A stretch of 35,125 bases of DNA, taken from contig CAIZES010000464.1 of assembly GCA_903932045.1 (NCBI GenBank), forward strand, positions 1 through 35,125, written 5' to 3'. A program made the translations under genes and the position numbers. A model generated the notes under the pieces. It made no database searches. It was not told where the DNA came from and was given only the letters and a program-made list of their open reading frames with translations. Below are positions 1 through 29,584 of the stretch, piece by piece; position 1 is the stretch's first letter, and every line of letters starts with the position of its first letter. This stretch comes from an uncultured Silvanigrella sp. Its GTDB lineage: Bacteria; Bdellovibrionota_B; Oligoflexia; Silvanigrellales; Silvanigrellaceae.

Positions 1-205
1 AGAACACAGTGCTGAATCCCGGGTTGACGAGCGTGCGGCGCCCGCGAGCGTCCGTGTCGACGCGCACGTTGTTCACGTACAGCTCATAGAAGCCCACGCC
101 CGTCACGTAGGCGCGCGCGCGCGTAACGTCCGCCCCCGCCGCGAGCGAGAACGTCGCTCGCAACTGGTTCTCGCCGCCGATCCACTGCAACTCGAGAAAT
201 TTCAT
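1..205 (-). pseudogene. alpha-L-rhamnosidase N-terminal domain fragment
   Basis: Read on the minus strand from ATG 205 to the left edge, this gives 68 residues containing QWIGG, LRATFSLA, RARAYVTGVGFYELYVNN and LVNPGFS. That series matches the lectin-like N-terminal domain of bacterial-type alpha-L-rhamnosidases (Bac_rhamnosid_N, PF08531), whose typical pattern is W-I, L-R-x-x-F, A-R-L-Y-V-T-x-L-G-Y-Y-E-L-Y-x-N-G, then P-G-W/F. The segment is very GC-rich, unlike everything that follows. Family homology seems to begin only around position 190, so the five codons before it (MKFLE) may be accidental and the real gene start is probably lost at the junction. The gene leaves the window at position 1, so the catalytic domain is not visible. 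The family match is clear by eye; whether this piece belongs to the same molecule is doubtful. Confidence 0.55.
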
Positions 206-8150: not shown

Positions 8151-8246
8151 AACACCAAATAAACACCAGAAATTCATAAAAAACAGGTATTTCATGCAAT
8201 AACAGAAACACCCGTGATTCAGGTGTTTCAGGAAAGTAAGGTGTTT
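8151..8246. repeat. Nested AAACACC / GGTGTTT repeats
   Basis: The heptamer AAACACC occurs at 8161-8167 and 8206-8212, and its complement GGTGTTT at 8222-8228 and 8240-8246. A shortened AACACCA at 8151-8157 lies one helical turn before the first copy. The inner pair extends to GAAACACC/GGTGTTTC (8205-8229), a perfect 8-bp stem with a nine-base loop. No T-run follows, so it is not a simple intrinsic terminator. Placement between convergent genes, near the par cassette, allows a protein-binding array or an iteron-like element. Confidence 0.5.
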
Positions 8247-8260
8247 AACAAAAGTACGCG

Positions 8261-8401
8261 TCAGTTTTTGCGCGACTTTTCCCAAACGAGCCAGATGCCG
8301 CGCCGTTCGATTCGTAGGCGGAGCCGGCGGCCCATATAGGCGAGAATGACCACGCCGGTGGTGATGGTGAAAACGATGGTGATGATGCTGGTGTCAGTCA
8401 T
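8261..8401 (-). CDS. Small single-pass membrane protein (46 aa)
   Basis: The start is ATG 8401, preceded by a perfect AGGAGGT ribosome binding site six bases upstream, and the frame runs to TGA at 8263-8261. The product starts MTDTSIITIVFTITTGVVIL, a hydrophobic helix of about 20 residues. It continues with YMGRRLRLRIERRGIW, a strongly basic segment that would stay in the cytoplasm by the positive-inside rule. It is convergent with the XRE gene ending at 8132. No family is recognised. The size and layout fit a small regulatory or toxin-like membrane peptide, but that is only one possibility. The excellent ribosome binding site is the main support. Confidence 0.55.
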   Translation of the reverse strand: MTDTSIITIVFTITTGVVILAYMGRRLRLRIERRGIWLVWEKSRKN

Positions 8402-8642: not shown

Positions 8643-8750
8643 TCTTCCTTGGCGCGCCGGTGCTCGCGCAGGCATTCCACGGAGAGGCAGCGCCATTTTT
8701 GTCGCGCAATGGAAACATTTGCTTTTGCGTATCCGACATGAGAATATACA

Positions 8751-8777
8751 GAAGTACGTGTACCGAAGTATGTATAC
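8751..8777. repeat. Tandem 13-bp repeats upstream of parM-like gene
   Basis: GAAGTACGTGTAC (8751-8763) and GAAGTATGTATAC (8765-8777) are direct repeats with two mismatches and a 14-base period, each holding a near-palindromic core. They end 17 bases before the ParM-like start, overlapping the expected promoter/operator position. In ParMRC systems the ParR protein binds short direct repeats in this place (parC), so this is a plausible half of a centromere or operator. Only two clear copies are seen. Confidence 0.45.
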
Positions 8778-8793: not shown

Positions 8794-9828
8794 ATGATGA
8801 ACGCGACAATGCTGCAAATGATGAGGAGCTACCCTTCAACAATTGCACCGATCCTCGATGGGGATTGGCGCGATACGATGGAACCGGTCCAGTTTGAGTA
8901 CCGAGGACGGAGGCTTGCTGTGGGGTCCATCGTCCACAAGCAGAAGCTGAGTGGCGTTAAGAAGCTCAATTTGTCTGCGGCAGATGAGCAATTCGAGCAG
9001 CTTCTCATTGCTGCGGCCTTAATGGCCAACGCGGATGGAGACATTAACCTGGTGTGCGGTTTTCCCAAGCACACCATCGCTCAAAACACCCAGCTTCTGA
9101 AAACTTATAAGAATCGAAGGTTTGAGATTCCAACCCCAACGGGGGTGAGGACTTTCACCATCCGTTCGATTTGGCCGATGTACGAGGCGGTTGGGCACGC
9201 GCATGGCGTTCGCTATGCCCTTGGGCTCCGGGAGCAGCTTTTTGTTGCATCCATCGGCTTCGGGACGGTTGAAGCGGTGCTCTTGGACACGGAAGGACGT
9301 CCCGTCATGAGCACACTCTTTGGCGAAAAGCTCGGGATCAGGCGAGCCGTCGAGATCTTCAAGGGGTGGTTGCTAAAAGATGGACTTCGAGAGCCAGACT
9401 GCGGTGGTGATGACGCCTGGTACGACAGTGTTCTAATCTCTGCATACCGCAAGGAGCGCCAGGCGTTGCGTGTGGGATCGCAGATTGCGTCGGTGGAGTG
9501 GCTGTACGAACTGGCACTCAAGGCTCTCGAAAACTACGCGTCAAGCCTGCTTGCGCCGAGGATTCTACAGCACATCGACTCAATTGGGTCTGGTGGCGTT
9601 ACCTTCCCAATCACGGGTGGCGGTTCGCTTTATCGCGAAGTGGCGCAGGGGATCAAGGTGATGGCCGAGTCCTATGGACTCCAATTTCGGGAAATTCCAG
9701 AGGATTTGTCGCTGAAATCAGCCGCTCTTGGCTACGCGTTTTTGGCAAAGACCCGAGAGGAGTTTTCCTCAAAAACGTTGATTGCTGACTTTGGAAATTC
9801 CAATACCGTTTACTCATTTATGATCTGA
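8794..9828 (+). CDS. parM: ParM-like actin-family segregation ATPase, apparently circularly permuted
   Basis: The start is ATG 8794 (or 8797) after AAGGAG; the frame stays open upstream but without actin motifs or a better ribosome binding site. The 344-residue product follows the ParM/StbA plan from its second element on: FEYRGRRLAVG, LLIAAALMANADGDINLVCGFP, a phosphate-2 loop ASIGFGT (152-158), and an adenosine-binding TGGGS (274-278), then AALGYAFLA. The phosphate-1 motif that should open the protein is missing there. A matching motif, LIADFGNSNTVYSF, occupies residues 329-342 at the extreme C-terminus. The order of the fold thus seems rotated. It would form ATP-driven filaments that separate plasmid copies, with the RHH protein encoded 16 bases downstream as adaptor. 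ParM-family membership is likely; the permutation is inferred from motif order. Confidence 0.75.
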   Translation: MMNATMLQMMRSYPSTIAPILDGDWRDTMEPVQFEYRGRRLAVGSIVHKQKLSGVKKLNLSAADEQFEQLLIAAALMANADGDINLVCGFPKHTIAQNTQLLKTYKNRRFEIPTPTGVRTFTIRSIWPMYEAVGHAHGVRYALGLREQLFVASIGFGTVEAVLLDTEGRPVMSTLFGEKLGIRRAVEIFKGWLLKDGLREPDCGGDDAWYDSVLISAYRKERQALRVGSQIASVEWLYELALKALENYASSLLAPRILQHIDSIGSGGVTFPITGGGSLYREVAQGIKVMAESYGLQFREIPEDLSLKSAALGYAFLAKTREEFSSKTLIADFGNSNTVYSFMI

Positions 9829-9844: not shown

Positions 9845-10162
9845 ATGGAAAAAATAAAACGGACAAGGCCATCAAAGAGCGTGACATTTACGCTGAATCC
9901 GAAGAATCCCAACGAGGCAAAGTTGATTGAACTGCTTGAGAAGCGGGTTTCTGTTCGTACATCTTCATATAAACATGCTCTCGGAACAGAATTGATTCGT
10001 GAGTTGGTTTTGATGGGGATGGAAGCTGTCGAAAAGTCGTTTCCGGCTCAGTTTCAAACAGCAAAACCCCAAATGATTCTCAAGGAGGAATTTCACAGCA
10101 AAGAAAGTCACTCGATTATTGGTGCAGGTACTTGTGATCTTTCTGGGACTTCTCCACTTTGA
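9845..10162 (+). CDS. ParR-like ribbon-helix-helix DNA-binding protein
   Basis: The start is ATG 9845, ten bases after GAGG; a TTG at 9836 is too close to that site. The 105 residues begin with a basic segment (MEKIKRTRPSK) and a beta strand SVTFTLNP. A helix with EAKLIELLEKR follows, then LGTELIRELVLMGMEA, a ribbon-helix-helix layout as in ParR and StbB adaptor proteins. The tail after about residue 65 looks disordered, as in ParR proteins where the C-terminus binds the ParM filament. It lies 16 bases after the actin-like gene. It would bind a centromere-like site, possibly the repeats at 8751-8777, and probably also represses the operon. Family membership rests on size, fold pattern and position. 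Confidence 0.65.
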   Translation: MEKIKRTRPSKSVTFTLNPKNPNEAKLIELLEKRVSVRTSSYKHALGTELIRELVLMGMEAVEKSFPAQFQTAKPQMILKEEFHSKESHSIIGAGTCDLSGTSPL

Positions 10163-10304: not shown

Positions 10305-10997
10305 GTGTCGCGACGCCTTCTCAATTTTCGTGTTAGCCCCGATCTTCATGACGACATTCAGAATTGGCTTCGACTAAATCCAGGCGTGAGTTTTACTGAT
10401 CTGGCAAATTCCGCTCTACAGGAATACCTGCGTGGGCATCATTTTATACAAAGAAAGCCTTTAGATCAGGAAGAATTGCAGCTCCCACCATGCAAGACTG
10501 AGTTTCCAGCTGTGGGAAACGACTCGCCCACAATCAAGCGAGCCGTGCGAAACAGTGTCGAATGTTGGATTTCAGCACAAACACAACAGGGGATCTGTAC
10601 GCTACTTCTCAATAAAGTGAGAAAGAAACACCCTGAAGAAACTTACTGGCAGCCGATCACTGGTGGGATCGAAGAAGACGAATCTCCTCACGAGGCTTGT
10701 GTGCGAGAGGTTTTTGAGGAGACGGGAATCTTCCTGACCAAGCACGAAATACGCATGCTTCCGAGTCCGTGGGAGGTTCCGATTGATGGTGAGAATCGCA
10801 TAATCAGAAAGCACATATTCTGGGCTGTCCTCCGAAATGGGAGGCATCCGGTCAGATTATCGGATGAACATATCGGCTTCAACTGGACCCAGGTCAGTGC
10901 TGTGAGAAGTGCGCTGAAGTGGCCAACCGACAAGGAACGTTGGGATCATATTGCTGCCTTGCTAACAAAATCCGCTGCGATCGAAACGCTAGCATAG
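10305..10997 (+). CDS. Ribbon-helix-helix / Nudix hydrolase fusion
   Basis: GTG 10305 is preceded by TGGAG at seven bases. The 230 residues have two parts. Residues 3-44 (LLNFRVSPDLHDDI, SFTDLANSALQEYL) match the strand-helix-helix pattern of ribbon-helix-helix repressors. Residues about 80-225 are a Nudix domain with a perfect Nudix box at 120-142: G120, E126, then REVFEETGI at 134-142 (G-x5-E-x7-R-E-U-x-E-E-x-G-U). The metal-binding glutamates are intact, so hydrolysis of a nucleoside-diphosphate-linked compound is likely possible. The fusion suggests a regulator whose DNA binding responds to a Nudix ligand, as in NrtR, which uses a different DNA-binding domain. It is first in an operon with a ferric transporter (20 bases to the permease gene) and has a palindrome over its promoter. 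Confidence 0.75.
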   Translation: MSRRLLNFRVSPDLHDDIQNWLRLNPGVSFTDLANSALQEYLRGHHFIQRKPLDQEELQLPPCKTEFPAVGNDSPTIKRAVRNSVECWISAQTQQGICTLLLNKVRKKHPEETYWQPITGGIEEDESPHEACVREVFEETGIFLTKHEIRMLPSPWEVPIDGENRIIRKHIFWAVLRNGRHPVRLSDEHIGFNWTQVSAVRSALKWPTDKERWDHIAALLTKSAAIETLA

Positions 10998-15161: not shown

Positions 15162-17297
15162 GTGGTACAGAGAGCAACAAATAAGGAAGACAATCAGAAT
15201 GCAGGGTTCGCCCTCATCCTGCTGGTAGGGGTGGCTTTGGCGGGTGGGTGGTTTCTCCTGGGAGAACGCCGCCGTGCAGAGGCTGAGTACATCCTTTGGG
15301 CGCAGAACTCGGGGGCATCGGTTCTGACTGTGCTGTCATGGGCCTTTGCTGGGCTTGCCCTGGTATTACTGCTTCGAAAGCGGACCAAGTATCTCACAGA
15401 AGAACTGCGCGAGGGTTTAAGAAGTGCAGCATTATATGACCTATCATGGCGCATGAAGTTCAAGATCTTTGTGCCACATTTCGTATTCTGCGGTGCTGCG
15501 TTTCTTGGATATTTGTTTCTCTATTTGCGAGGGGATGTGCGTTGGTTCTTTTTTGACTTTCTTGCGGCCAAAGATAACGTTAATTTGAGAGTATTTCTTC
15601 TTCTCTCGACCACGATTCTTCCCGTCATTCTCATTCCTGCTTATGTGACATTTTTTCTCAATGGATCTGGAATGGCTCACAGGTGGCGCGTTCATGTCAC
15701 CGGGCTTCCAGACAAAGAAAAGGTGACAACCAGGACGCTGCCAGAACCGGGGGAGTATCATGAGGGTCGCAGGCGGCCTGTATTTCTCCTGGGTGCGCGT
15801 GAGTCATCCAAATCGCTAAAATTTGAAAAAGACGTGAAGATTCCTAGTTGGGTACTGTTTTCATTCCCAATGATATACGGCGGTCTCATTGTTTTTGGCA
15901 AAAAAGGTTCTGGAAAAACGAGCCTTCTTCTGAGAATTCTCGAAGATGCCATTCGCTTTAAGGCCGATGATCCAAAATTAAAGTGTTCGATTTGTTTCAT
16001 TGATATTAAGGGTGATGTTGCAAATTTTCTCGAAAAAAAGTCAAAAGAATATGGCAGGGAATCAGATTTTGTGCGACTTGGCATTGAATCATTTGCGAAA
16101 TGGAATCCGTTTGCGCATTTGGGACCGCAATCCCGCGCCATCGAAGTCCGCGCTTTGAGCTTCTGGCTTCGCTGTGCCATGGGAAATGGGGCAGCCTCCG
16201 CCAAGGATTCTTTTTGGGACGACAATGCCGATAACCTCCTCTTTCGATCGATACATTTGCTGGCTCTTGCTGGGGAAGCGGTATCATTTAGTTCCATATA
16301 TGGCATGATAACAGAGCTGCGAGACGACAGTTCGTATCGCGATGATCTCTTCACTAGAGCAGAACTCATTATCAATCAAAGAGGAGTTGAGGGTTCTCCT
16401 TGGCAGGATGAACTGGAAGACACGCGGCGATATTTTGACAAAGAATTTGTTGTTCTCGACAATAAAATTAAGTCTACCGTGGTAAATATTGGTGGAAATT
16501 TTTTGCAGAAGTTTCTCACCGCCGAATACAAACAGGCGTTTTGTTGCGCGGCCAACACACCAGGTCACTTTGGGGGATTTCGCGATCTTATTGCCGATGG
16601 CAAGATTTTTGTGCTTGATATTCGGAGCAATGAACATGGCACCATCGCCAACGCGCTCGGAACGTTGGTAAAGCTAGCCTATCAAGCCGCAGTAAAAACA
16701 CGCGATAAATATGCACGCGACGAAATGGTGCGCTCAACTGTTTTTTGCATGGACGAAGCCCAAGCGTTCATTTCTCCTTCCAGCGCCGGTACGGAAGGTG
16801 ATGACAAATACCTTGAAATGTCGCGCTCATTTCTTGCGGTAGACATCTACGCAACACAGCAATACACCTCCTTTAAGGCATCTGTTGGAGCTGATGTTGC
16901 ACAACGAATCATTGGATCGTTCAATAATATTATTTGTTACAAACACAATGACCCAGAGCTGACAAGATACATTCAATCCATTCTTGGAAACGAGGAACAG
17001 CAAGAGAAAAGTCTCAATATTTCAGAAAGTGCGAGCAGCGCCACTCCAGATGTGTTGACGTCTGGCGGAACAGTCGAAACGGATCATCAAGTATCACGTT
17101 CGGTATCTCTGCAAAAAAAAGAGAAGCCACTTGTCGATGCCGCTGTTTTCAAGAGTCTCACAACCTTTGAGGCAATTGGCATTTTTGATTGTCCGAATGG
17201 GCTTCAAGTCTCACGATTTTGCACAAAGCCTCATTTTGTGGACGCAAGAATGCCGCATGTGAAAGTGCTCGAAACTTTACAAAAACAGGCGGACTAA
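15162..17297 (+). CDS. traD: Type IV coupling protein (TraD/VirD4 family)
   Basis: GTG 15162 is set by GGAGG nine bases upstream. The 711-residue protein has several N-terminal membrane helices (about 16-34, 55-72, 103-122 and 143-168), more than the two usual for F TraD. A cytoplasmic ATPase domain follows, with Walker A GKKGSGKT (246-253), a C-x-x-D-I-K-G-D strand and Walker B VFCMDEAQAF (from 527). The TraG/TraD C-terminal signature region (FLAVDIYATQQYTSF, IICYKHNDPELT) comes after. It would bind the relaxosome and drive DNA into the secretion channel. The C-terminal tail after about 630 is Ser-rich, then ends in a conserved-looking domain. It starts a five-gene operon; the TraU-like gene begins two bases after its stop. 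Confidence 0.9.
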   Translation: MVQRATNKEDNQNAGFALILLVGVALAGGWFLLGERRRAEAEYILWAQNSGASVLTVLSWAFAGLALVLLLRKRTKYLTEELREGLRSAALYDLSWRMKFKIFVPHFVFCGAAFLGYLFLYLRGDVRWFFFDFLAAKDNVNLRVFLLLSTTILPVILIPAYVTFFLNGSGMAHRWRVHVTGLPDKEKVTTRTLPEPGEYHEGRRRPVFLLGARESSKSLKFEKDVKIPSWVLFSFPMIYGGLIVFGKKGSGKTSLLLRILEDAIRFKADDPKLKCSICFIDIKGDVANFLEKKSKEYGRESDFVRLGIESFAKWNPFAHLGPQSRAIEVRALSFWLRCAMGNGAASAKDSFWDDNADNLLFRSIHLLALAGEAVSFSSIYGMITELRDDSSYRDDLFTRAELIINQRGVEGSPWQDELEDTRRYFDKEFVVLDNKIKSTVVNIGGNFLQKFLTAEYKQAFCCAANTPGHFGGFRDLIADGKIFVLDIRSNEHGTIANALGTLVKLAYQAAVKTRDKYARDEMVRSTVFCMDEAQAFISPSSAGTEGDDKYLEMSRSFLAVDIYATQQYTSFKASVGADVAQRIIGSFNNIICYKHNDPELTRYIQSILGNEEQQEKSLNISESASSATPDVLTSGGTVETDHQVSRSVSLQKKEKPLVDAAVFKSLTTFEAIGIFDCPNGLQVSRFCTKPHFVDARMPHVKVLETLQKQAD

Positions 17298-17298
17298 T

Positions 17299-18558
17299 AT
17301 GAAAAAAGCGATCAATAAAACACTGCTATTTCTTTCTTTTGTTGTGGCAACAAAGGCGCAAGCGGTGCCTTTTCACGGCTGCACCTTCTACAAAGAACGC
17401 CTCCAAGCCTGGTCGTGGCCCGGTGGAATGAACACCGGGTGCGCCAGTTTTTCTGCAAATTATGGCAGTTGTACAAAGCAAAAATGCGGATTTTGGGGCT
17501 GCATTACCTATTCGGGATATTGGGTTCAAGGCTGGCTGCCAGACTACTTTCTCGAAGTCAACACGGTCATGGGAAAGTCTGCATTTTCGGATTCAATAGA
17601 TGGCATTGCGCTGCGAAAACATATGGAAATAGCCAAGAATTGGTGGAGATCCAGCCTTGCAAATGTCAATCCCTTTGAGCGCGGGGTGCGCGACAACTCC
17701 TATGAGTTTGGCTCAGACCACAAACTGCTCTATTCGCGGGCGTTAAGTATTCCCTACGGAACGGTGGGGTGGTCAATACCCACCATTGGCTCCTCTGCGG
17801 GTTCGGCAATGCCAGCTTGCTTCAAGGCCATTTCTGAGCTGGCGCCAGCAACCTGGAACGATCTCCCAACTTCAGGGGACAGGAAGACAGCAGCGGTGTG
17901 GAGCCCTATCACGGCGTTGGTCTGCGGGGGAGCTGCGCCAATTGCCGGAGCCGCCCAGACCGCAAAGACCATCATCTCAAACTTTCCCATCCCTACCGGC
18001 ACAATGCCGGACTCCGGTTTGCCTGGTGGCTGCGCCTTACCACTTCCTGTTTGGGCTCAAACGGTGGGAGGGCTTACAGGCCAGGGTGCTACGGCTCCCA
18101 ACTGCATGGGAGCGCTTGGACCCTTGTTGCCGCGAACGGGGTGGGTCTGGGCTCCTGATCAATTTACAGCCAACCAGCAGGCAGCCTGGCGCATTGCTTC
18201 CTTGGCAGAGGACTACTTTCACATGGGTGTTGGGGTTCAACCTGAGGACAAGTGGCAGCAGGTGTGGCCTGTGACCCCGCGAGCCCAATGCTTCTCGCCA
18301 GGTGGTTTGGACAGACCCAACAATTTCGAGCCAACCACATACACGGGCGACCGGATCACGGGTATTTTTCCGCCGATCCCCTTTAGCGACACACCATACC
18401 GACAAGGACTTTCCGACGCGGTGTTTGCGGTTTGGCGCAAGCGTGGAACGTGTTTGGAACCTTGGGAAGGAGTTGCTGCTATCGCAGACATCGAAGCTGC
18501 ATACTATCTACGTGTTGCAGCATGTAAATCACTCAACACATTGGACGGTATGCCATGA
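17299..18558 (+). CDS. traU: TraU-like conjugal transfer protein (PFL_4710/TIGR03756 type)
   Basis: The 419-residue protein has a signal peptide (MKKAINKTLLFLSFVVATKA, cleavage near AQA). The mature N-terminus is rich in cysteine and aromatics (GCTFYKERLQAWSW, GCASF, GSCTKQKCGFWGCITYSGYW), followed by VQGWLPDYFLEV. This cysteine/tryptophan pattern and 'surface-LPD' stretch fit the TraU family in its genomic-island form. TraU proteins act in the periplasm and are needed for DNA transfer rather than pilus assembly. The many cysteines would need a disulfide catalyst, and a CxxC thioredoxin-like protein is encoded three genes downstream. The 3' two thirds of the gene are noticeably richer in GC than the neighbours. 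It overlaps the next gene by four bases. Confidence 0.7.
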   Translation: MKKAINKTLLFLSFVVATKAQAVPFHGCTFYKERLQAWSWPGGMNTGCASFSANYGSCTKQKCGFWGCITYSGYWVQGWLPDYFLEVNTVMGKSAFSDSIDGIALRKHMEIAKNWWRSSLANVNPFERGVRDNSYEFGSDHKLLYSRALSIPYGTVGWSIPTIGSSAGSAMPACFKAISELAPATWNDLPTSGDRKTAAVWSPITALVCGGAAPIAGAAQTAKTIISNFPIPTGTMPDSGLPGGCALPLPVWAQTVGGLTGQGATAPNCMGALGPLLPRTGWVWAPDQFTANQQAAWRIASLAEDYFHMGVGVQPEDKWQQVWPVTPRAQCFSPGGLDRPNNFEPTTYTGDRITGIFPPIPFSDTPYRQGLSDAVFAVWRKRGTCLEPWEGVAAIADIEAAYYLRVAACKSLNTLDGMP

Positions 18559-19109
18559 AATACAAATCTATTGTGTCCATATTCGTAGTGTCAATGTCGG
18601 AAGCCAATGCGGACAATCTTACGTGGTTTTCCGATTCACAGATGACATTTGATAAATCTGCTCAGGAAAATAATGGCGAAAAACGTCCAGCAAATATAGA
18701 GACTCCTAATCCTTCAAAGGTCGCAAATTCTGGTGTCGAGGCATCTATTGTGCCAGAAAAAAAGGACCAGATCGGTGCTAGAAACGAAGCACACGGGATC
18801 AGGTTTAGTGTTGGCGAATACGGAGCTGAATTGATTTCCATTGCGCCAATGAGTGAGTCGGCAAGCAAGGGTATTTCGCCAAATGAATGCAAAGATCTCT
18901 TTGCAGCGGAGTTTCGTCCAGACGCAAACCTCAGAAAGGCTATCTTGAAGGAAATGCAATTTCCTCTTGAGGCAAATGCGGCTCTTCCAGAAAAATTGCG
19001 GTGGATATTTGGAGGGCACAAGGGCTGCTTTTCAAGAAATACAAAAACATCAAGTCCAAATCTGGAAAATCTCGATGCCGCATTGCGGCGTTTAATTCCA
19101 GCGAAATAG
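18555..19109 (+). CDS. Exported hypothetical protein of the transfer operon
   Basis: The ATG overlaps the TraU-like stop (ATGA). The 184 residues begin with a short, weak signal-like segment (YKSIVSIFVVSMSEANA). A Ser/Asn/Glu-rich, probably disordered stretch covers about 20-85. A folded-looking C-terminal part follows, with GIRFSVGEYGAELISIAPM, ECKDLF and LRWIFGGHKGCFSRN, including two cysteines that could pair in the periplasm. I do not recognise the family. Its place between TraU-like and ATPase genes suggests a structural or assembly role in the mating apparatus. Confidence 0.6.
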   Translation: MKYKSIVSIFVVSMSEANADNLTWFSDSQMTFDKSAQENNGEKRPANIETPNPSKVANSGVEASIVPEKKDQIGARNEAHGIRFSVGEYGAELISIAPMSESASKGISPNECKDLFAAEFRPDANLRKAILKEMQFPLEANAALPEKLRWIFGGHKGCFSRNTKTSSPNLENLDAALRRLIPAK

Positions 19110-19117
19110 GAGTGGAT

Positions 19118-20227
19118 ATGGATCTTTCAACCTCACGAGCCTTTGAAGAATACTTCAATCACATGCTTCACAAAGCTGTTGAAAGCGGCGCTTCAGACGT
19201 CCATATTGAGCCATTTCCTGGAGTCTTTCAGATTAAATTTCGTGTCGATGGTGTTCTTCGTTTTTTCGACAAACAAATTTTAGATACCAAAAGGCTAGAA
19301 AGATTTGCAGAAGTCACCAGAAAAATGTGCGGGTTTGACATGGGAAAAGACGGAAAGCCACTTGATGCCCGGTTTTCCATTCCATCACTTCCCTATGATT
19401 TTCGCTCCTCGCTTTGCCCAACCATGTATGGCGAAAAAATAGTTCTCAGGCTTTTGCAAAAGAATAAAGCTTTCGATTTGCGCACCTATCCGCTGCGCGA
19501 TGATGCTAAAGCCTGCCTTGGACGCGCTCTCAATCGCTCGCAGGGAATGATTATTGTGAGTGGTCCCACTGGATCTGGAAAGACAACATTGCTTTATAAT
19601 GCTTTGTCAGTCATCGATCGCATCGCAAATAATGTTCACTCCATCGAAGACCCAATTGAGTATTCTTTGCCGAATCTTGGGCAAACCCAGGTCACTCACG
19701 GCTCTCTCTCTTTTGCGGAAGTGTTGCGGAGTTTAATGCGCCAAGACCCCGATGTGATTTTAGTGGGAGAAATTCGCGACGAAGAAACAGCACGTTCAGC
19801 CATCCATGCCTCGTGCACCGGGCATCTCGTATTGTCCACGGTTCATGCTAATTCAGCCGCTGAAATTGTGGAGCGAATGGAAGGATTGGGAGTCAAACGC
19901 GATCTCTTTCTAGCCAATCTTGCCTTTGCGTCAGCACAAAGACTCGTCTCAAAAAACTGCCCACATTGCACCGAGGATGATCCAGATTCCATACCACTTG
20001 TGCGCGCGGTATTTGGTGATGACGCGATTCCAAAAAGAGGAAGAGGCTGCGAACATTGTGGGAATAGCGGGATCAAAGGCATGGTTCTTCTTTTTGAATG
20101 GTTGACCCGCGAGCGAGACGGCTCTGGAAATAAAGTGATAAAACCGCATGATTCATTACTAAATCAGTCGAGATACTATATGAGGGAAGGAGTTATCAAT
20201 GCTGAAAATGCTTGTGGCACTGACTAA
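19118..20227 (+). CDS. GspE/PilB-type secretion ATPase, short form
   Basis: ATG 19118 follows AGGAG, which overlaps the previous stop; the longer upstream frame overlaps that gene and is not used. The 369-residue protein is a type II secretion / type IV pilus ATPase (PF00437). It shows SGASDVHIEPF near the N-terminus, Walker A GPTGSGKTT (149-157), an Asp box EDPIEY, Walker B VILVGEIRDEETA (around 213-225) and a His box TGHLVLSTVHAN. Paired cysteines CPHC (281-284) and CEHC (311-314) form the zinc knuckle typical of GspE/PilB rather than VirB11. The usual N-terminal domain of about 200 residues is absent. It is embedded in the transfer operon, so it probably powers pilus or substrate handling here. 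The 3' end overlaps the next gene by 29 bases. Confidence 0.88.
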   Translation: MDLSTSRAFEEYFNHMLHKAVESGASDVHIEPFPGVFQIKFRVDGVLRFFDKQILDTKRLERFAEVTRKMCGFDMGKDGKPLDARFSIPSLPYDFRSSLCPTMYGEKIVLRLLQKNKAFDLRTYPLRDDAKACLGRALNRSQGMIIVSGPTGSGKTTLLYNALSVIDRIANNVHSIEDPIEYSLPNLGQTQVTHGSLSFAEVLRSLMRQDPDVILVGEIRDEETARSAIHASCTGHLVLSTVHANSAAEIVERMEGLGVKRDLFLANLAFASAQRLVSKNCPHCTEDDPDSIPLVRAVFGDDAIPKRGRGCEHCGNSGIKGMVLLFEWLTRERDGSGNKVIKPHDSLLNQSRYYMREGVINAENACGTD

Positions 20228-20993
20228 TTGTGCTGTCATATGTCTGCTTAGTTCAACGGCCGTTGCCCAAGAATTCTTCGGTGGCACCGACCTCGACTAT
20301 TGGAATGATGGTCTTAAACCGATGGCAAAACCACGCATTGTTGAGCCCACAGAGACACCAAAGGCGACGAACCTGGCGGCACAAACGCCGGTTCCTGGAG
20401 GTTCTGTCATTCGGCAAATGGACTCGAAACCTTTTGATTGGAAGAACTACGAAGATCCAAAATCAGACGTCTTCTGGGATGAAGGTGGAGATTACATTCC
20501 ACCAAGGCCATTTCGAGTCGTTGCCGCCGAGCCTACCTCAGAAAATGTCGCCAAATTGCTGCAATGGATGCAGAAGAAAATGTCGTTAACTAAGAATCTT
20601 GAGACGACGCTCAAGCGGCAAGGAGGTTCAAGTGAGCAGAAGTTACTTCCAAGCAAAGATATATCAGTGGAAAAAGCGGTGGCTGTTTCGTGGAAACAGA
20701 TGCAGATTGTCTATTTTTATCAATCGACCTGCCCTCATTGCCAAAAAAGCACCCCTGTGGTTGCAGAACTCAGAAGGCTTGGAGCGCAGGTGATACCTGT
20801 ACAACTCGACTGGAAAACCAGTCAACCTCTTGTTGATGGCTCCGTAAAATACGACTCCGCGTTGGCATCTGCTCATCCAATCACTGGCACCCCAACCTGG
20901 GTCATCTCGTATCGAGGGGTGACAGAAGAGATCCAGGGCGAGACCTCCCCTGAAGCGATTGCCTCGCGTTTTTCGTCCTCCCCATCAAGATAA
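20199..20993 (+). CDS. TraF-like periplasmic thioredoxin-fold protein
   Basis: ATG 20199 has AAGGAG six bases upstream and lies inside the end of the ATPase gene. The 264-residue precursor has a signal peptide (LVALTNCAVICLLSSTAVAQ). A Pro-rich N-terminal half contains FDWKNYEDPKSDVFWDEGGD. The C-terminal thioredoxin domain has the active site TCPHC (C178 and C181), then a cis-proline TPTW (ITGTPTWVISYRG). This matches F-type TraF/TrbB disulfide enzymes; both cysteines are kept, so a redox role is likely, unlike F TraF which has lost them. It would help fold cysteine-rich partners such as the TraU-like protein. It is the last gene of its operon. Confidence 0.78.
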   Translation: MLKMLVALTNCAVICLLSSTAVAQEFFGGTDLDYWNDGLKPMAKPRIVEPTETPKATNLAAQTPVPGGSVIRQMDSKPFDWKNYEDPKSDVFWDEGGDYIPPRPFRVVAAEPTSENVAKLLQWMQKKMSLTKNLETTLKRQGGSSEQKLLPSKDISVEKAVAVSWKQMQIVYFYQSTCPHCQKSTPVVAELRRLGAQVIPVQLDWKTSQPLVDGSVKYDSALASAHPITGTPTWVISYRGVTEEIQGETSPEAIASRFSSSPSR

Positions 20994-21057
20994 TCCTGCA
21001 AAAACCGATAGATGAAAATATTAAAACACAATAATACACAACCATGTATATTGCATC

Positions 21058-21085
21058 TTGACATACGCAAATGTAGATGTATTCT
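21058..21085 (+). promoter_or_regulatory. Promoter of the pilin operon
   Basis: TTGACA (21058-21063), 16 bases, TATTCT (21080-21085). The -35 and following bases (TTGACATACGCAAA) match the coupling-protein promoter except for one base. ATGTAGATGT (21071-21080), touching the -10 box, is identical to 31523-31532 in the third transfer promoter. ATACACAACCA lies 14 bases upstream of the -35 box (21034-21044). The leader to the pilin start at 21149 is about 60 bases. Confidence 0.6.
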
Positions 21086-21148
21086 TAGAGCTGCGGTGGG
21101 TCGTTTGGCAGGGTGCTGAACGCCTCCGAATGGTGCAAGGAGTTTTTT

Positions 21149-21541
21149 ATGATTTCAGTTTTAAGATCTCATTGGTACGAGATGACACCTCGGACGCGGT
21201 TCGTCATCTCTCTTGCTGCGGCAGTTGCTCTCACTGCCATACTCGCACACGCCTTACCGGCTCTAGCTCAGGGAACAACCTGCACGGGCGAGGATTGCGG
21301 CATTGCGATTGGCGGGGAAGACAAGTCGGGCCAACTTTCGGCGTTCGCAAATCTTGCCAAGACGGCGCAGGTTTTTGTGATGCGCTACGCCGCTCCTGTC
21401 ATCGGCGGAATCATTGTGTTCTACGGCATTTTCAAAATTGCATTGCGTGAAGCCGTGGTTGGAACAATCGCGCTCATTGGCGGTGGTGCGTTGCTGTTCT
21501 TGCCAAAAATTATCCAGCAGATTGTTAAATTTGCAGGATAA
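21149..21541 (+). CDS. Conjugative pilin (TraA/VirB2-like)
   Basis: ATG 21149 follows AAGGAG by six bases. The 130-residue precursor has a long signal peptide (RFVISLAAAVALTAIL, cleavage near HALPALAQ). The mature part of about 90 residues has a short polar N-terminus with a Cys pair (TCTGEDCG). Two membrane helices follow (APVIGGIIVFYGIFKIAL and VVGTIALIGGGALLFLP) with a small basic turn (REA) between them. This is the standard VirB2/TraA-type pilin layout. It is first in the operon, just before TraL, as in F and G-type systems. The subunit would sit in the inner membrane and be extruded into the pilus. Confidence 0.75.
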   Translation: MISVLRSHWYEMTPRTRFVISLAAAVALTAILAHALPALAQGTTCTGEDCGIAIGGEDKSGQLSAFANLAKTAQVFVMRYAAPVIGGIIVFYGIFKIALREAVVGTIALIGGGALLFLPKIIQQIVKFAG

Positions 21542-21556
21542 TAGAAAGGATTAGAT

Positions 21557-21895
21557 ATGCTAGTGCAGGAAAATCTCTCAAAGTATGTCACTGCCAAGAA
21601 GGTCGCAACCAATCCGCTGATCGATGAGGCTCCCATCCTTTTTCTTGGAAGAACTCTTATGGAGTTGGTGCTACCGGGAGCAATTTTTGTTTTTTCGACG
21701 GCTATTCTTGACATGGCAGTTGAGGGTTTTCTCTGTGCCGTCGTACTTTCCACAGTCTTGCCAGCATTTAGAAGGCGTTTTCCAAGAGGTATTATCCCTC
21801 ACTTCCTGTGGTCATTGGGGCTGAATCGTCCCAAGCAACTGCCTTGTCGCCTTATGTTTTCAGTGCGTAGAGCTTTATCGGTATTTGGACCATAG
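21557..21895 (+). CDS. traL: TraL/VirB3-like membrane protein
   Basis: The 112-residue protein has a polar N-terminus (NLSKYVTAKKVATNPL). A hydrophobic helical hairpin follows, with LGRTLMELVLPGAIFVFS and VEGFLCAVVLSTVLPAF. A basic tail comes next (RRRFPRGIIPHFLWSLGL). Size, hydrophobic plan and position between the pilin and a VirB8-like gene fit TraL/VirB3, a small inner-membrane part of the T4SS that works with the VirB4/TraC ATPase. The start has AAGGA upstream. The sequence itself is too divergent for a motif-level match. Confidence 0.65.
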   Translation: MLVQENLSKYVTAKKVATNPLIDEAPILFLGRTLMELVLPGAIFVFSTAILDMAVEGFLCAVVLSTVLPAFRRRFPRGIIPHFLWSLGLNRPKQLPCRLMFSVRRALSVFGP

Positions 21896-21912
21896 CGAGA
21901 AAGGAGAACGAG

Positions 21913-22707
21913 ATGACAGAAGAAATGAAACTCAATCAAACACTGCTTGCCTCGCTGGGAAAAATGAAATCCTGGAGAAAGCAAAAAGCGGAAGGGAAAA
22001 AAGAGGCGCGAGAGGTGTCGTCCCGCATGATTCCTCCATTTATGGCTTCAAACGCCGTTCTACAAGACAGGTTGCGCGTTGCTAAATTATTTAGTGTCGG
22101 TGTTGCCGTCGTCTGTGTGGGTGTAGTGGGATTGCAGGAGTGGCGATTCAAGGGGGCGCTAGAACACGCGCTCAACAAAGAATTCTTGATTGTGCCTGGT
22201 GTTGTTGATTTTATGAGGGTAAGGCCAGGAGTCATACCCGAAAACGTGGTCTTTTTTTTCTCCGAATTCATGGCCGATCAGGTTGGGACATTCACATATG
22301 CCAACGTCGGGGAACGCTACAAACGGGCAGCGGAGTTCATGTCGCCTGCATTGCGTGAGTCGTTTTTGATGGAGTTACGCAAGAAGGAAAAAGATTACCG
22401 AGAGCTTGCTGTGACTGAGATTTTCAGTCCTGTCCCGGTTTCAAAGTTCGAGCAGCTTAAAGATGAAGCTGGCAGTCCGTACTATCTCGTTCATCTACGA
22501 GGAACACTAGAGAGATATTCAAACGATCAAAAAATCGCGAGCGAAGAGGAAATCTTCACACTTAAATTCCGAACGACACGTATTGTTGCCGACAAACCTT
22601 GGTTTTTTGAACTCACATCCTTGGAAAGGCAATCGTCAGAAGAGTTCGCTCGCTCCGAATCTGCGAAGGAAAGATTCGCAAAATCAGAGGGGGAAAAGAA
22701 CCTATGA
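21913..22707 (+). CDS. traE: TraE/VirB8-like protein (PFL_4703 type)
   Basis: The 264-residue protein has a cytoplasmic N-terminus of about 55 residues, one membrane helix (VAKLFSVGVAVVCVGVVGL, about 57-75) and a periplasmic domain of about 190 residues with VVFFFSEFMADQVGTFTYAN and AEFMSPALRESFLMELRKKE. That single-pass layout is typical of TraE/VirB8 and of the DUF2895 island proteins. VirB8-like proteins dimerise and link inner and outer parts of the channel. The C-terminal 25 residues are Ser/Glu/Lys-rich. The stop overlaps the next start by four bases. Confidence 0.75.
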   Translation: MTEEMKLNQTLLASLGKMKSWRKQKAEGKKEAREVSSRMIPPFMASNAVLQDRLRVAKLFSVGVAVVCVGVVGLQEWRFKGALEHALNKEFLIVPGVVDFMRVRPGVIPENVVFFFSEFMADQVGTFTYANVGERYKRAAEFMSPALRESFLMELRKKEKDYRELAVTEIFSPVPVSKFEQLKDEAGSPYYLVHLRGTLERYSNDQKIASEEEIFTLKFRTTRIVADKPWFFELTSLERQSSEEFARSESAKERFAKSEGEKNL

Positions 22708-23534
22708 AACGTTTTATCATTGCGGCAGTGTCATTTGTGTTGGCAAAGAGCGCACTCGCAGGCACCGTAGTTGCTTACGAAGGCCAGGATGTAGTCGTGC
22801 CTGTTGATCCGGCGGCAGGTGTGACTTTGATGCTGCCGGGTGCAGTAAAAATCGCGACACCACCACGATTTCACTCAATCCAGCCTATCGTTCCTCCTGC
22901 ATCACAAGCGGAGCCAGGGCAAGCAGCTCCTGCTCCAATGGATATTCGAGCCTTTTCTGTTCGGGCAACAAGAGCAACTGCTGAAAGGGTAACGTTCGTT
23001 CTGGCTGATGACAGGAATGTTACGGTTCGATTTATTCCAACACCTGGCGCTGACAATTTTTATGAGGTCAGATGGCAGAAAAATCAGAGTGCGAAAAACA
23101 AAGATTCGGGATACTTGGCAAATGAGCGAGCACTGATGCTGGCTTTGTTGCGGGACGACCTCGGAATGGGGCGGCAAATCGTCAAGACAGAAATCAAGAT
23201 TGATCGCTATCCGCAGCTTGAAATATTTCTCGTGAGAACATTTCAAACCGATGGGCTTTCTGGATATGTTTTCACGGTAACGAATACCAGCAAAGCAAAA
23301 CTGCAGCTTAATCCGACGGTCATTGCAATTAGCTCTCCCAATCGCGCGATTCTCACTCAAATGGATCACGAGACACTGAGACCTTGTTCGGAGGACAATA
23401 GTCCAAATCCGCGAGGAACCGGCTGTATGACAGCGCTTCGAATGGTGGTGAAGGGAACTGGCGCTCTGCCAGCACTGTCGCAAGATGCGCGAGCAGCCTT
23501 GCCGTTTATGGTCTCAATTAAGGAGAAAGAGTAG
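22704..23534 (+). CDS. traK: TraK/VirB9-like secretin protein (PFL_4704 type)
   Basis: The 276-residue precursor has a signal peptide (MKRFIIAAVSFVLAKSALAG). The mature N-terminus, VVAYEGQDVVVPVDPAAG, fits the strand-rich N-terminal domain of TraK/DUF3438 proteins. The C-terminal half (QLEIFLVRTFQTDGLSGYVF, VTNTSKAKLQLNP) is the beta-rich domain that sits in the outer-membrane ring with TraV and TraB. A Cys pair near 228-243 may form a disulfide. Position after TraE-like and before TraB-like genes is the conserved order. Confidence 0.75.
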   Translation: MKRFIIAAVSFVLAKSALAGTVVAYEGQDVVVPVDPAAGVTLMLPGAVKIATPPRFHSIQPIVPPASQAEPGQAAPAPMDIRAFSVRATRATAERVTFVLADDRNVTVRFIPTPGADNFYEVRWQKNQSAKNKDSGYLANERALMLALLRDDLGMGRQIVKTEIKIDRYPQLEIFLVRTFQTDGLSGYVFTVTNTSKAKLQLNPTVIAISSPNRAILTQMDHETLRPCSEDNSPNPRGTGCMTALRMVVKGTGALPALSQDARAALPFMVSIKEKE

Positions 23535-23536
23535 CC

Positions 23537-24664
23537 ATGAAACGGACGCATTTTATGAACATCCTCGTGGCATCTATTCTTGCTCCTGCATTTATAGCAA
23601 AGGCACAGCAAGGAAATCCACTTCCAGAGCCAACAAAAACGGTGCAAAGAACAACGTCGTCAACCGATGTTTACGGCAAAGAGACGCAGTACAAAAAGAA
23701 GTACGCTGAGGAGTCAGAAAAGCGAAGAGTCGCCGAAGACGAGCTTGCCAAAATACGCTCTCAGGTAGGAAAACCAGATAGCAAATCGACTTCCGTGCAG
23801 CTGGAGCCGACAGCGACACCGGGTGATGTGAAAAATCCGCAAATATCCGCTACGACAACGATGAAGGCAGCAAAAAAGAAGAGTGCAAAAGGGAAAAGGC
23901 TTCCAGTTGTTCCGGGCGCTGCAATAGGTTCGGATTTTAGTACGTCGTCATACGTTCAGGACGCTGAAATGAACGTAAGCCAAAAGCCATTGGTTTTTAC
24001 AGTAAGCCAGGCAACGCTAACAAAAGAAACCTCTACGGTTATTCCGCTTGGAAGCTATGTCAAAGCGCGAGTGCTAACGGGAGTCGAGGCAAATGATCAA
24101 GAGCCATTCCCTATGCTATTGCAGCTTGACTATGCCTTTGTTGGGCCAAACAAAACGAAAATAGACCTGTCGCATTGCTTCATGATTGCAAAGACGAAGG
24201 CAAATCTATCCACTGAGCGAGTCATGGCAGAAACTCAAGATATTAGCTGTGTGCGCGATAATGGCGAACATTTTAAACGCACTGCCAAGGGGTTCATCGC
24301 GGGTGAGGACTCCACCTTTGGTATGACAGGACAGCTTATTTCAAGGCAGGGACAAGTGCTGATGACCGCTGTGATTGCGAATCTCGCCAAAGGCGCGGGA
24401 GAGGCGGTGGCCTTGGCAAATTCTGCGACGCAGGTGGTGACTGGTCCTGGTGGAGCGATTGCACAGAGTACGCGAATCACAGGAAATACTGGCGCATATA
24501 TCGCTGGGAAATCTGTAACGGACGCTGCTCAAATGATCGCTGATTGGTATTTGGAGCACGCTCGGAAGCTCATGCCCAGCATTGCGGTTGGCAGTGGCCG
24601 CGATGTGTGGGTGGTTCTTCTCGACACCATTCAGGTTCCACCACTTCCAGCAAATTACGAATAG
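23537..24664 (+). CDS. traB: TraB/VirB10-like channel protein (PFL_4705 type)
   Basis: The 375-residue protein starts with a hydrophobic segment (FMNILVASILAPAFIA) serving as signal or anchor. A coiled-coil stretch with Lys/Glu (KKYAEESEKRRVAEDELAKI) follows, then a low-complexity linker. The C-terminal TrbI/VirB10 beta-barrel domain runs from about 170, with VIPLGSYVKARVLTGVEAND, LSHCFMIAKTK, GEHFKRTAKGFIAGED and GQVLMTAV. The last part (YLEHARKLMPSIAVGSGRDV) is the outer-membrane antenna region. It spans the periplasm and joins TraK and TraV in the core complex. The start lies two bases after the previous stop. Confidence 0.85.
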   Translation: MKRTHFMNILVASILAPAFIAKAQQGNPLPEPTKTVQRTTSSTDVYGKETQYKKKYAEESEKRRVAEDELAKIRSQVGKPDSKSTSVQLEPTATPGDVKNPQISATTTMKAAKKKSAKGKRLPVVPGAAIGSDFSTSSYVQDAEMNVSQKPLVFTVSQATLTKETSTVIPLGSYVKARVLTGVEANDQEPFPMLLQLDYAFVGPNKTKIDLSHCFMIAKTKANLSTERVMAETQDISCVRDNGEHFKRTAKGFIAGEDSTFGMTGQLISRQGQVLMTAVIANLAKGAGEAVALANSATQVVTGPGGAIAQSTRITGNTGAYIAGKSVTDAAQMIADWYLEHARKLMPSIAVGSGRDVWVVLLDTIQVPPLPANYE

Positions 24665-24676
24665 GAGACGATGAAA

Positions 24677-25060
24677 ATGAGAACGAAAATAGCGTTGGCA
24701 ATATTAGGCATCGTATCCATAAGTGGTTGCATCACCAGAGCGCCAACCACCTATGAACTCGACCGTCGTGCTGGGTTTTCTCCACCAGGAGAGCCAGTAC
24801 TCCCTGATGACCTTTCAAAGATGCGCACAAATTCGGCCATCGCGAGAACTCCTATGATTCCCGTGCGTGTCCCGCCAGTTGTTGAGAAGGTTTGGATTGC
24901 AGATTCGACACTGGGAGATGGTGCCAAAATGCAAGGGACATGGATGTTTCTCGAAGTTGAGCCTGGGAGATGGTTCGATGAAGTTGACCCTGGTGCTGCT
25001 CCACTTCTGATTCCGCCAGCACTTGGAACGACAAAGACACCAACGACAAGCAAAAAGTAA
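24677..25060 (+). CDS. traV: TraV-like conjugal transfer lipoprotein
   Basis: ATG 24677 is better spaced (nine bases) from AGGAG than the in-frame ATG 24671 (three bases). The 127-residue product has a lipoprotein signal ending ISGC (lipid Cys around residue 18), followed by a Pro/Thr-rich linker. The conserved core reads PVRVPPVVEKVWIADSTLGD and GTWMFLEVEPGRWF, close to the island lipoprotein family TIGR03751. It would anchor the TraK/TraB ring in the outer membrane. Position between TraB and TraC is the usual one. Confidence 0.75.
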   Translation: MRTKIALAILGIVSISGCITRAPTTYELDRRAGFSPPGEPVLPDDLSKMRTNSAIARTPMIPVRVPPVVEKVWIADSTLGDGAKMQGTWMFLEVEPGRWFDEVDPGAAPLLIPPALGTTKTPTTSKK

Positions 25061-25081
25061 AAGAACGGAGAGGAGGACAAA

Positions 25082-27832
25082 ATGGGTGAAGCCGTTGCAA
25101 ACGCTATCAATTCAATGCGCAAAATACCTACAAAACTCATGGATAAAATTCGTCCCATGAGGTCGCCCGGCATAGCGACGGCCCAGCCACAAAGCCTCGG
25201 CGAGATGTTGCCATACGAGACTTTTGTCGAGGCTGAAGGACTCACATTGGTTGTGATGTCTGATGGCAGCATGGGGGTTGTTTGGGAAATCGCACCTTTG
25301 CCGCACGAAGTGATCAAGCAGGAAGTTTTGAAAGCACAGGTTGAGGCGATCACAAAAGTCTTGGAGTCGGTCTGTGATGCACGGACAAGCTTTCAGCTCA
25401 TTTGGGACTCAACACCCAATAAATCGTTTGCCACTCCGGCATATGCGACAAACCCGAAGACCTATCCCCAGAGGGTGATGGTCGAGCGAATTAAAGCAGT
25501 GCAGCGTCGTGCGGATAAGCCCGAGGCTGGACTTTCCTGCACGCGACGCCGTTTGTACCTGTGTTTTCGTGTGCAGGCTTCGGGAAGATTGGGACTCGAT
25601 ACTGTGGGTGGCCCATTGGGTGGCACGGTCTCATCGGCCGTTGAGGGACAGGTGGAGATCCTGACAAAAACTCAAGATGTTATTGTAGCACAATCGAAAA
25701 CCATCGAGGACGGCCTTTCGCATTGCGGCCTGGCCTGGAAACGCTGCGATGCACACACCTTTACGCAGCTCGTTCGGGGTGGGCTCCATTCCTACGCCTT
25801 TGCGCGGGACCAAAGAGCTTTCACGAGTCAGCCAAATGCCAACGAGCGTCTCAGCGACCAGGTGCTGATGGATTTTGTCGAAATGGTTCCCTGGGGTGTC
25901 CAGCTTGGGAATGCGGCTTCAGGAAGCCCCGACTCAGTGCAGGTGCTTTCGTGGGCGCAACAGCCGCCACAGGCGTTTGTGGGAATGATGGCCCATCTCT
26001 TTGGGATTCGGGAACCTGTTCGTGTTGTCCTCAACCTCCGCCCCTGCGTGGATGTCTCGGACATGGACAGGAATGCCACCCTTCTTCGCCGTTCGATGGA
26101 TGCCAGGGGCAAGCGCCAGCTCACGGAGCTGCAAGAGACGCAGACCCGCATGACCTACGGCGAAAAGCTTATGTGGGTTAGCCTGCATGTGTTTGTGCGA
26201 AACGTCAGCGTGTCCCTCCCGGAACTCAAGAAAAACGACGGCTCGCGGAGCGTTGCTAACAGCCTGAACCAATCCACCGGGATACCGATGCTGACCGAGC
26301 AATACGCAGCGCCCGCTGTTTTCCTGCTCTGTCTTCCGCTCGGGTACAGGCCAGACGCAGGCAAGTTTGTTCAGAGGGAGCGGCGCGTCTTGTCGGCATC
26401 GCTGGGCTGCTACTTGCCCGTGTTTGGGGGATTCCCTGGAACTCGTACCCAAAGTCAGCTTTTGCAGAACAGGGCGAGTGATCCCATCTATCTCTGTACA
26501 CGTGACGCGCAAACCAGTGCCCATGCGGCTATTTTGGGATCATCTGGCTCTGGTAAGTCGTTTTATCTCGCAAATCTTTTGTGCAGCGAGAAGGCGGCGG
26601 TTCCTGATTCTCTCGATTTTATCATAGATAATAAGACCTCATATGAGGTTTACGCAAAACTCTGCGGTGAGGAAAGAGGTTTTCTTATTGCCAAGCCACC
26701 TGCTTCGTTTCCCAATATTTTCTTGGGACGTGCTGACAATGAGCGTATTGGCGTGATTGTTGGTATTTTAAGAACCGCAATTAGTCTAGCGAATCCAGGG
26801 TTTCAGATAACTTCGGAACACGACATGATTCTGAAACTCGCGGTGCAAAAAACCTTTGATGACAACTATATTGATGCTGAAACTGGATTCTCGGATGGTG
26901 TGATTGTTGAGAGAGCCACGATTGGCAAAGTGGTTGTGCCAAGACTTTCGGATGTGGTGGACAAGTTTACGCAGGTGTGTCGGCAGCTCGATTTGCAACC
27001 AGAGCATGCACAAATACTGCGCGCGAAACTCGGACCATTCTACGGAAAAGGCCAGTATGCAGCCATGTTCGACCAAGATTGTGTGGCCGATGCGGAACCG
27101 CCAACACCATCTGTAACGCTATTTGACCTTCAAGATGTCGTCACCGATCCTATTCTTTGTACTCTCACAAGTCAGATTTGCATCTCAGAGATCATTCGCC
27201 AAATAAAGCGATCTGACAATAAAAGTAAGAGTGGACGCCTTGTCATCGAGGAGGCTGGCGTTCTTGGAGCGCGAAGCCCAGAGCTTGTGGAGTTCGTGCG
27301 TGAAGCGTGGAAGACCTTCCGGAAATTGGGATATTCTTGCATCGGACTCACCAACTCAGTTGAGGATTATAGGGAAAAAGAAGCTCCGCGAGTGATTTGG
27401 CAAATCTCGCCAAATAAGATCATTTTACCCATGTCGCATGAAGACATTGAGCTTGCCTTGACGGAAGACGAGAAGAAGGGAATTCCAAAATTCCTGACCG
27501 AAGATGTCGCCGAGGTTGTCCGCACCCTTGTCAAAGTTGATGGTGTCTACTCCCAAGGGTTTTGGTGGAGCAGTGATATAAAAGGCAGTTTTGTTTATGC
27601 ACCAACAGGTTTTGACTATTGGCTTGCAGCAAGCAAACGCAAAGAAGTCTCTGGAACTGTGGACAGGATTGCGCAGCGTCTCGGGAGCTATTGGCGAGCA
27701 ATCCATTGGTTGGCAACACATCACCCATTTGGATTTCCAGACAGAAATGCCACCGACCGAGTACGGGAAATCAGCGACGAAGAGCTAAATGCCATTCCGC
27801 TTGATTATGTTAGCGAGGAGAAAGGTTTATGA
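25082..27832 (+). CDS. traC: TraC/VirB4-like T4SS ATPase (PFL_4706 type)
   Basis: The 916-residue protein matches the TraC/VirB4 motor. The N-terminal half (LTLVVMSDGSMGVVWEI, PLPHEVIKQEV) interacts with the membrane; a P-loop ATPase domain follows. Walker A is GSSGSGKS (486-493) in AAILGSSGSGKSFYLANLL. The Walker B strand RLVIEEAGVLG has Glu-Glu (723-724) where Asp-Glu is usual. A VirB4-type CIGLTNSVEDY and a final W-x-I-x-P-N-K-I segment follow. It energises pilus assembly and transfer from the cytoplasmic side. The gene is a mosaic: roughly codons 150-480 are GC-rich, the flanks much less so. GGAGG precedes the start, and the stop overlaps the next gene by four bases. Confidence 0.88.
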   Translation: MGEAVANAINSMRKIPTKLMDKIRPMRSPGIATAQPQSLGEMLPYETFVEAEGLTLVVMSDGSMGVVWEIAPLPHEVIKQEVLKAQVEAITKVLESVCDARTSFQLIWDSTPNKSFATPAYATNPKTYPQRVMVERIKAVQRRADKPEAGLSCTRRRLYLCFRVQASGRLGLDTVGGPLGGTVSSAVEGQVEILTKTQDVIVAQSKTIEDGLSHCGLAWKRCDAHTFTQLVRGGLHSYAFARDQRAFTSQPNANERLSDQVLMDFVEMVPWGVQLGNAASGSPDSVQVLSWAQQPPQAFVGMMAHLFGIREPVRVVLNLRPCVDVSDMDRNATLLRRSMDARGKRQLTELQETQTRMTYGEKLMWVSLHVFVRNVSVSLPELKKNDGSRSVANSLNQSTGIPMLTEQYAAPAVFLLCLPLGYRPDAGKFVQRERRVLSASLGCYLPVFGGFPGTRTQSQLLQNRASDPIYLCTRDAQTSAHAAILGSSGSGKSFYLANLLCSEKAAVPDSLDFIIDNKTSYEVYAKLCGEERGFLIAKPPASFPNIFLGRADNERIGVIVGILRTAISLANPGFQITSEHDMILKLAVQKTFDDNYIDAETGFSDGVIVERATIGKVVVPRLSDVVDKFTQVCRQLDLQPEHAQILRAKLGPFYGKGQYAAMFDQDCVADAEPPTPSVTLFDLQDVVTDPILCTLTSQICISEIIRQIKRSDNKSKSGRLVIEEAGVLGARSPELVEFVREAWKTFRKLGYSCIGLTNSVEDYREKEAPRVIWQISPNKIILPMSHEDIELALTEDEKKGIPKFLTEDVAEVVRTLVKVDGVYSQGFWWSSDIKGSFVYAPTGFDYWLAASKRKEVSGTVDRIAQRLGSYWRAIHWLATHHPFGFPDRNATDRVREISDEELNAIPLDYVSEEKGL

Positions 27833-29576: not shown

Positions 29577-29584
29577 GGATGAAT

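Follow-up and report, generated by a model that had tools for sequence, protein, structure and literature searches.

The window, that is, the whole stretch of 35,125 nucleotides analyzed here, encodes on its forward strand (8794 to 9828) a 344-residue protein that is likely a naturally circularly permuted actin of the ParM/Alp type (probability of roughly 0.8). In the proposed rearrangement, the N-terminal hairpin composed of β1, the phosphate-1 loop, and β2 (about 17 residues) would have been relocated to the C terminus. Circular permutation is supported by a homologue in which the order is conserved, by profile coverage that starts past the hairpin, by rotation tests with controls, and by the hairpin predicted for the homologue; the three-dimensional placement of the hairpin is inferred, as are polymerization into filaments and ATP hydrolysis. 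A natural actin carrying this hairpin last would show that the fold, and perhaps the filament, tolerates altered connectivity, and it would offer new termini for tagging or sensors together with a chain-order test of folding and polymerization.

Motif order in the window protein and its homologue

The open reading frame starts with an ATG at 8794, preceded by the ribosome-binding site AAGGAGA, and its stop lies at 9828. The only Pfam family found for the protein was ALP_N (PF17989), with an E value of 1.5e-6 and 28.9 bits against a curated cut-off of 26.3; residues 10 to 107 align with profile positions 18 to 119. The partition protein family phrog_691 also matches (E value of 5e-5). No NCBIfam family matched, an indication that profile annotation can overlook permuted actins.

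The original prediction held that the actin-like elements run in normal order from the second one onward, and all elements that it quoted are present: FEYRGRRLAVG at residues 34 to 44, CGFP at 88 to 91, ASIGFGT at 152 to 158, the adenosine motif TGGGS at 274 to 278 (9613 to 9627, +), and LIADFGNSNTVYSF at 329 to 342. The glutamate of the P-x-E motif (E131) and the GGG motif are retained as well; in ParM, the counterpart of this glutamate is E148. Its further claim, that the phosphate-1 motif is missing from the N terminus and found at the C terminus instead, also held. The new N terminus (residues 1 to 12; 8794 to 8829, +) carries no phosphate-1 motif and runs into SYPSTI, the equivalent of β3, and the pattern D-x-G-[NST] was absent both from the N terminus and from the preceding 300 bases in all six reading frames. 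The relocated phosphate-1 hairpin, TLIADFGNSNTVYSFMI, occupies residues 328 to 344 (9775 to 9825, +), an assignment that rests on a matrix match, conservation in the homologue, and the strand-turn-strand predicted for the latter; it includes Asp332 (9787 to 9789, +), a putative nucleotide-binding residue.

The matrix in question comprises 14 columns and was built from the phosphate-1 motifs of 11 ordinary ALP/ParM proteins. Among the 331 possible positions in the window protein, the best was residues 328 to 341 (TLIADFGNSNTVYS), whose 12.1 bits were matched or beaten by 0.96% of whole-protein shuffles; the runner-up was the phosphate-2 region, residues 149 to 162, with 10.1 bits. All 11 ordinary proteins show two peaks as well, but at residues 1 to 12 and approximately 156 to 202. 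The homologue has the same two best positions, with phosphate-2 first (10.1 bits) and the tail second (7.8 bits).

This homologue (P0003, locus L002) was the only one found in a protein search of 144 genomes and comes from a different genus of the same family (genome G004). It shares 28% identity with the window protein across residues 22 to 339 (E value of 2e-26). Its 337 residues likewise present the body first and a D-x-G-N-x-x-T hairpin last (NLIALDLGNHTTIGF, with the protein end reading NLIALDLGNHTTIGFYKEAQIKLN), without an N-terminal phosphate-1 motif; its adenosine motif is TGGGM. The altered motif order and its conservation in the homologue are thus shown. They also bear on the possibility that a frameshift, a wrong start codon, or a misassembly conceals an N-terminal phosphate-1 strand; a strand hidden by a sequencing error or an alternative start was among the refutations named by the original prediction. 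In favor of such an artifact, the window's genome is a fragmented draft of 503 contigs. Against it stand the absence of an upstream motif in six frames and the recurrence of the same order in a second, independent genome whose completeness is estimated at 98%; since this independent relative shares the order, an accident of sequencing or assembly on the window's side is ruled out, and the artifact reading is all but excluded.

Rotation tests and structure prediction

For the rotation test, the C-terminal tail was moved to the front of the protein and the sequence was rescored, with reversed or deleted tails as controls. Against ALP_N, rotation raised the score of the window protein from 28.9 to 31.7 bits and extended the covered profile from positions 18 to 119 to positions 3 to 119 (reversed tail, 29.2 bits). 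The homologue, which in its native order lies under the curated cut-off, rose from 22.8 to 30.2 bits, with coverage extending from 21 to 148 to 1 to 148 (reversed tail, 22.8 bits). The full-length profile phrog_691 gave the homologue 50.5 bits (profile positions 28 to 325) before rotation and 59.8 bits in a single alignment (4 to 323) afterwards; deleting the tail gave 48.9 bits and placing the reversed tail in front 49.7 bits. The window protein showed neither gain nor extension with phrog_691 (23.6 to 23.9 bits; reversed tail, 24.4 bits), which we attribute to its distance from that profile. These larger public profiles were used because a profile built in-house from 11 ordinary homologues was too weak. 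With the latter, the best rotation fell at the expected cut in both permuted proteins, and true tails were not clearly separated from shuffled ones (56/500 and 32/500 shuffles reached the true score). When profiles were compared with those of small groups of ordinary homologues, only a portion of the body aligned, a result without bearing on the permutation.

We predicted structures with AlphaFold2 in two runs. With the window protein as query and an alignment of the two permuted sequences alone, the model adopted an actin-type fold (Foldseek matches to CorM, Ta0583, and ParM), and the tail was unresolved (pLDDT below 50). The second run took the homologue as query; its alignment also contained the window protein and eight ordinary relatives stripped of their N-terminal hairpins, so that no row could template the tail. 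The resulting model (pLDDT 74.7, pTM 0.74) places a last helix at residues 298 to 309, followed by a linker of about five residues and a tail hairpin consisting of a strand at 315 to 319 (block pLDDT 87), a D-L-G-N turn, and a strand at 325 to 329 (block pLDDT 51); its first 22 residues have a pLDDT below 50. For this second model, Foldseek again returned Ta0583 and ParM, with TM-scores of about 0.5. Across the two models, the matches were Ta0583, ParM, CorM, and MreB, with E values of 1e-10 to 1e-7, TM-scores of about 0.5 to 0.6, and high rmsd. The prediction of an actin-type fold is thus established; where the hairpin sits in the sheet is an inference, drawn from its prediction directly behind the last helix, and not a measurement.

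Could the protein instead be a degenerate actin relative that lacks phosphate-1 and carries a look-alike at its C terminus by chance, without any permutation? The few or absent bits gained by the window protein on rotation and the failure of the weak-profile shuffle test to separate the tails would fit this reading. It is contradicted by the motif at the same place in a homologue of only 28% identity, by the 7 to 9 bits that rotation adds to the homologue and reversed-tail controls do not, and by the strand-turn-strand predicted for the homologue's tail, and we regard it as very unlikely. The weak points of the permutation reading remain the small rotation gain of the window protein (2.8 bits with ALP_N, none with phrog_691), the restriction to two members, and the moderate TM-scores.

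Under the permutation reading, the break falls between β2 and β3, and the moved unit is therefore β1, the phosphate-1 loop, and β2. The new termini would lie in the former β2-β3 turn, and in the window protein a linker of about 12 residues would tie the moved hairpin to the last helix of subdomain I. Most likely, the hairpin would refold into the β1-β2 position of its own subunit, with Asp332 restoring the ATP site. It is tempting to speculate that the hairpin could alternatively act in trans, inserting into the neighboring subunit by strand exchange, so that the ATP site would be complete only on assembly. A hairpin at a free C terminus could swap in this way, the AlphaFold2 models are monomeric, and cis and trans placement cannot be distinguished from sequence. 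If true, filament growth would be coupled to the building of the active site, with the phosphate-2 substitution described below tuning the chemistry of an assembly-completed actin. This arrangement appears unlikely, given that in the monomer model of the homologue the last helix ends at 309 and the hairpin follows at once, its first strand starting at 315; it is also known that the two termini of ordinary actins adjoin in subdomain I, which counts against a trans arrangement as well.

The original prediction's inference that the first strand had been relocated is supported in a refined form, in which the whole β1-loop-β2 hairpin would have moved. Of the checks that it proposed, the search for homologues with the same C-terminal motif yielded one, the comparison of permuted and rotated order against a profile gave a gain in the homologue and a small gain or none in the window protein, and structure prediction returned an actin fold but answered only indirectly whether the C-terminal segment occupies the β1 site.

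Genetic setting and the phosphate-2 substitution

The gene is followed downstream by a second one (9845 to 10162, +), whose 105-residue product we tentatively assign as a ParR-like adaptor, and the gene pair as such is shown. The assignment rests on a short BLASTP match, in which 22 residues of the N-terminal strand and helix resemble the product encoded next to an ordinary parM (locus L006) in the genome of the homologue, with a single-pair E value of 7e-4; no Pfam or NCBIfam family, ParR included, scored above the cut-off. The small genes that follow the two permuted genes showed no detectable homology to each other. Upstream of the window gene lie two tandem copies, 79% alike, of the 14-mer TACmGAAGTAyGTr (8747 to 8774, +), a tentative operator or centromere element that may be due to chance; the homologue's gene is preceded by an 18-nt inverted repeat with 100% complementarity and by direct repeats.

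Both permuted genes share their elements with conjugation genes. In the window these encode a coupling protein, a TraC-type ATPase, a TraF/TrbB-type thioredoxin, a TrbI/VirB10-type protein, and a GspE-like ATPase. The 44-kb contig of the homologue is conjugative plasmid-like and carries genes for a TrwC relaxase, a TraI-type helicase, and VirB4-, VirD4-, and VirB11-type proteins, with the permuted gene directly behind the helicase gene. The natural, if unproven, reading of the window locus is that of a partition module of a conjugative element: the permuted protein and its ParR-like neighbor would most likely form filaments that segregate the host element, a role that is inferred, as is ATP-driven polymerization. 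Alternatively, the permuted actin might serve a task other than partition, for instance as an ATPase of the conjugative element that is involved in transfer or regulation. This is favored by the presence of conjugation genes on both elements, by the position of the homologue's gene behind relaxase and helicase genes, by the loss of the phosphate-2 Asp, and by the lack of detectable homology between the downstream genes. It is opposed by the top family matches, which are partition proteins, by the parM-parR-like arrangement shared with ordinary relatives, and by the repeats upstream of the homologue's gene, and on balance we consider it unlikely.

Other features of the window were recorded. The conjugation genes span 15162 to 31330, and the GspE/PilB-like ATPase among them (19001 to 20227) is unusual for an F-type apparatus. 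Of 12 genomes sampled from this family, only G001 has a counterpart of the TraC-like protein, at 37% identity. Between the gene of an XRE-type regulator and the par locus lie a terminator-like hairpin (8205 to 8229) and an 18-base tandem repeat (8221 to 8256), and a putative gene at 8261 to 8401 (−) might encode a 46-residue membrane peptide (MTDTSIITIVFTITTGVVILAYMGRRL...). A NUDIX protein is encoded at 10305 to 10997, with an N-terminal extension that resembles, by eye, a ribbon-helix-helix domain.

The phosphate-2 motif LFVASIGFGTVEAV (residues 149 to 162; 9238 to 9279, +) departs from the standard, so that the original prediction's identification of ASIGFGT as phosphate-2 held only in part. 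Alignments with ParM and with eight ordinary homologues show Asp as the first phosphate-2 residue in ParM and in all eight, whereas both permuted proteins read S-I-G-F-G-T-[VI]-E-A, with Ser153 (9250 to 9252) in the window protein and Ser141 in the homologue replacing it. Mutation of this Asp reportedly abolishes filament dynamics in ParM and AlfA, leaving static filaments, whereas AlpC and Alp7A with the matching mutation are reported not to assemble into filaments at all (PMC5539076). Given the loss of the Asp, hydrolysis or filament turnover might be altered, and perhaps slowed; with the ATP site changed in two ways, by the relocated hairpin and by the Asp-to-Ser replacement, turnover may be unusual, an inference only.

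Relatives and known actins

Searches for further permuted relatives were limited in reach. At an E value of 1e-4 or better, ALP_N matched nine proteins in 336 genomes, including the two permuted ones; the alignment starts at profile positions 17 and 18 in these two versus 1 to 2 in all seven others, five of which belong to genomes of families other than the window's. A two-row profile of the permuted pair recovered, in 383 genomes, just these two and one marginal match (48 columns, E value of 0.008) in a 200-residue open reading frame of unrelated appearance. No permuted relative was found by tblastn, for which plasmids were searched with both proteins and phages with the homologue, or when IMG/VR and GTDB contigs were scanned for peptide patterns. 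A DNA pattern for phosphate-2 had no hits in IMG/VR and 23 loci in GTDB, none of which matched the family profile. The class of genome G367 was represented by only three genomes. Two members are known, and given the limited reach of the searches the rarity of the permuted order is not proven. As a separate observation, two ALP/ParM-like genes lie adjacent to each other in a genome of the same class (G057:C991, locus L054).

The original prediction knew of no characterized natural permuted ParM, and none turned up here either: searches of the open full-text literature, which leaves out most subscription papers, returned no natural permuted case for ParM, for bacterial actins, or for the actin fold or ASKHA proteins at large. 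One report pairs the terms in another sense, since what is permuted there is a fluorescent protein joined to ParM (PMC6695626). To our knowledge, the phosphate-1 hairpin comes first in all actins, Hsp70s, and sugar kinases. The archaeal actin Ta0583 and CorM from Anabaena, the top structural matches of the two models, are not described as permuted. ParM of plasmid R1 (PDB accession no. 1MWM and 4A61) resembles the window protein in a profile match over residues 83 to 290 (E value of 4e-4) and in Foldseek, but is unpermuted, retains the phosphate-2 Asp170, and has very low identity to it.

The closest comparison is offered by ordinary ALP_N/phrog_691 proteins, namely, P0004 and P0005 from the window's bacterial family (one sharing its genome with the homologue) and a relative on the Pigmentibacter ruber plasmid pGTC16762-1, a plasmid to which the window DNA itself shows only weak matches. 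The protein match to this plasmid suggests, short of proof, a host from Oligoflexia, close to Silvanigrellales. The permuted pair is like them in its Alp/ParM-type body, the phosphate-2 region, the connecting Glu/Gln strand, the GGG adenosine motif, overall length, and the small gene that directly follows each of the three ordinary genes. The ordinary proteins, however, open with the phosphate-1 hairpin (IDSGSS, at profile position 2) and carry Asp in phosphate-2, whereas the permuted pair presents the hairpin last and a Ser in that position.
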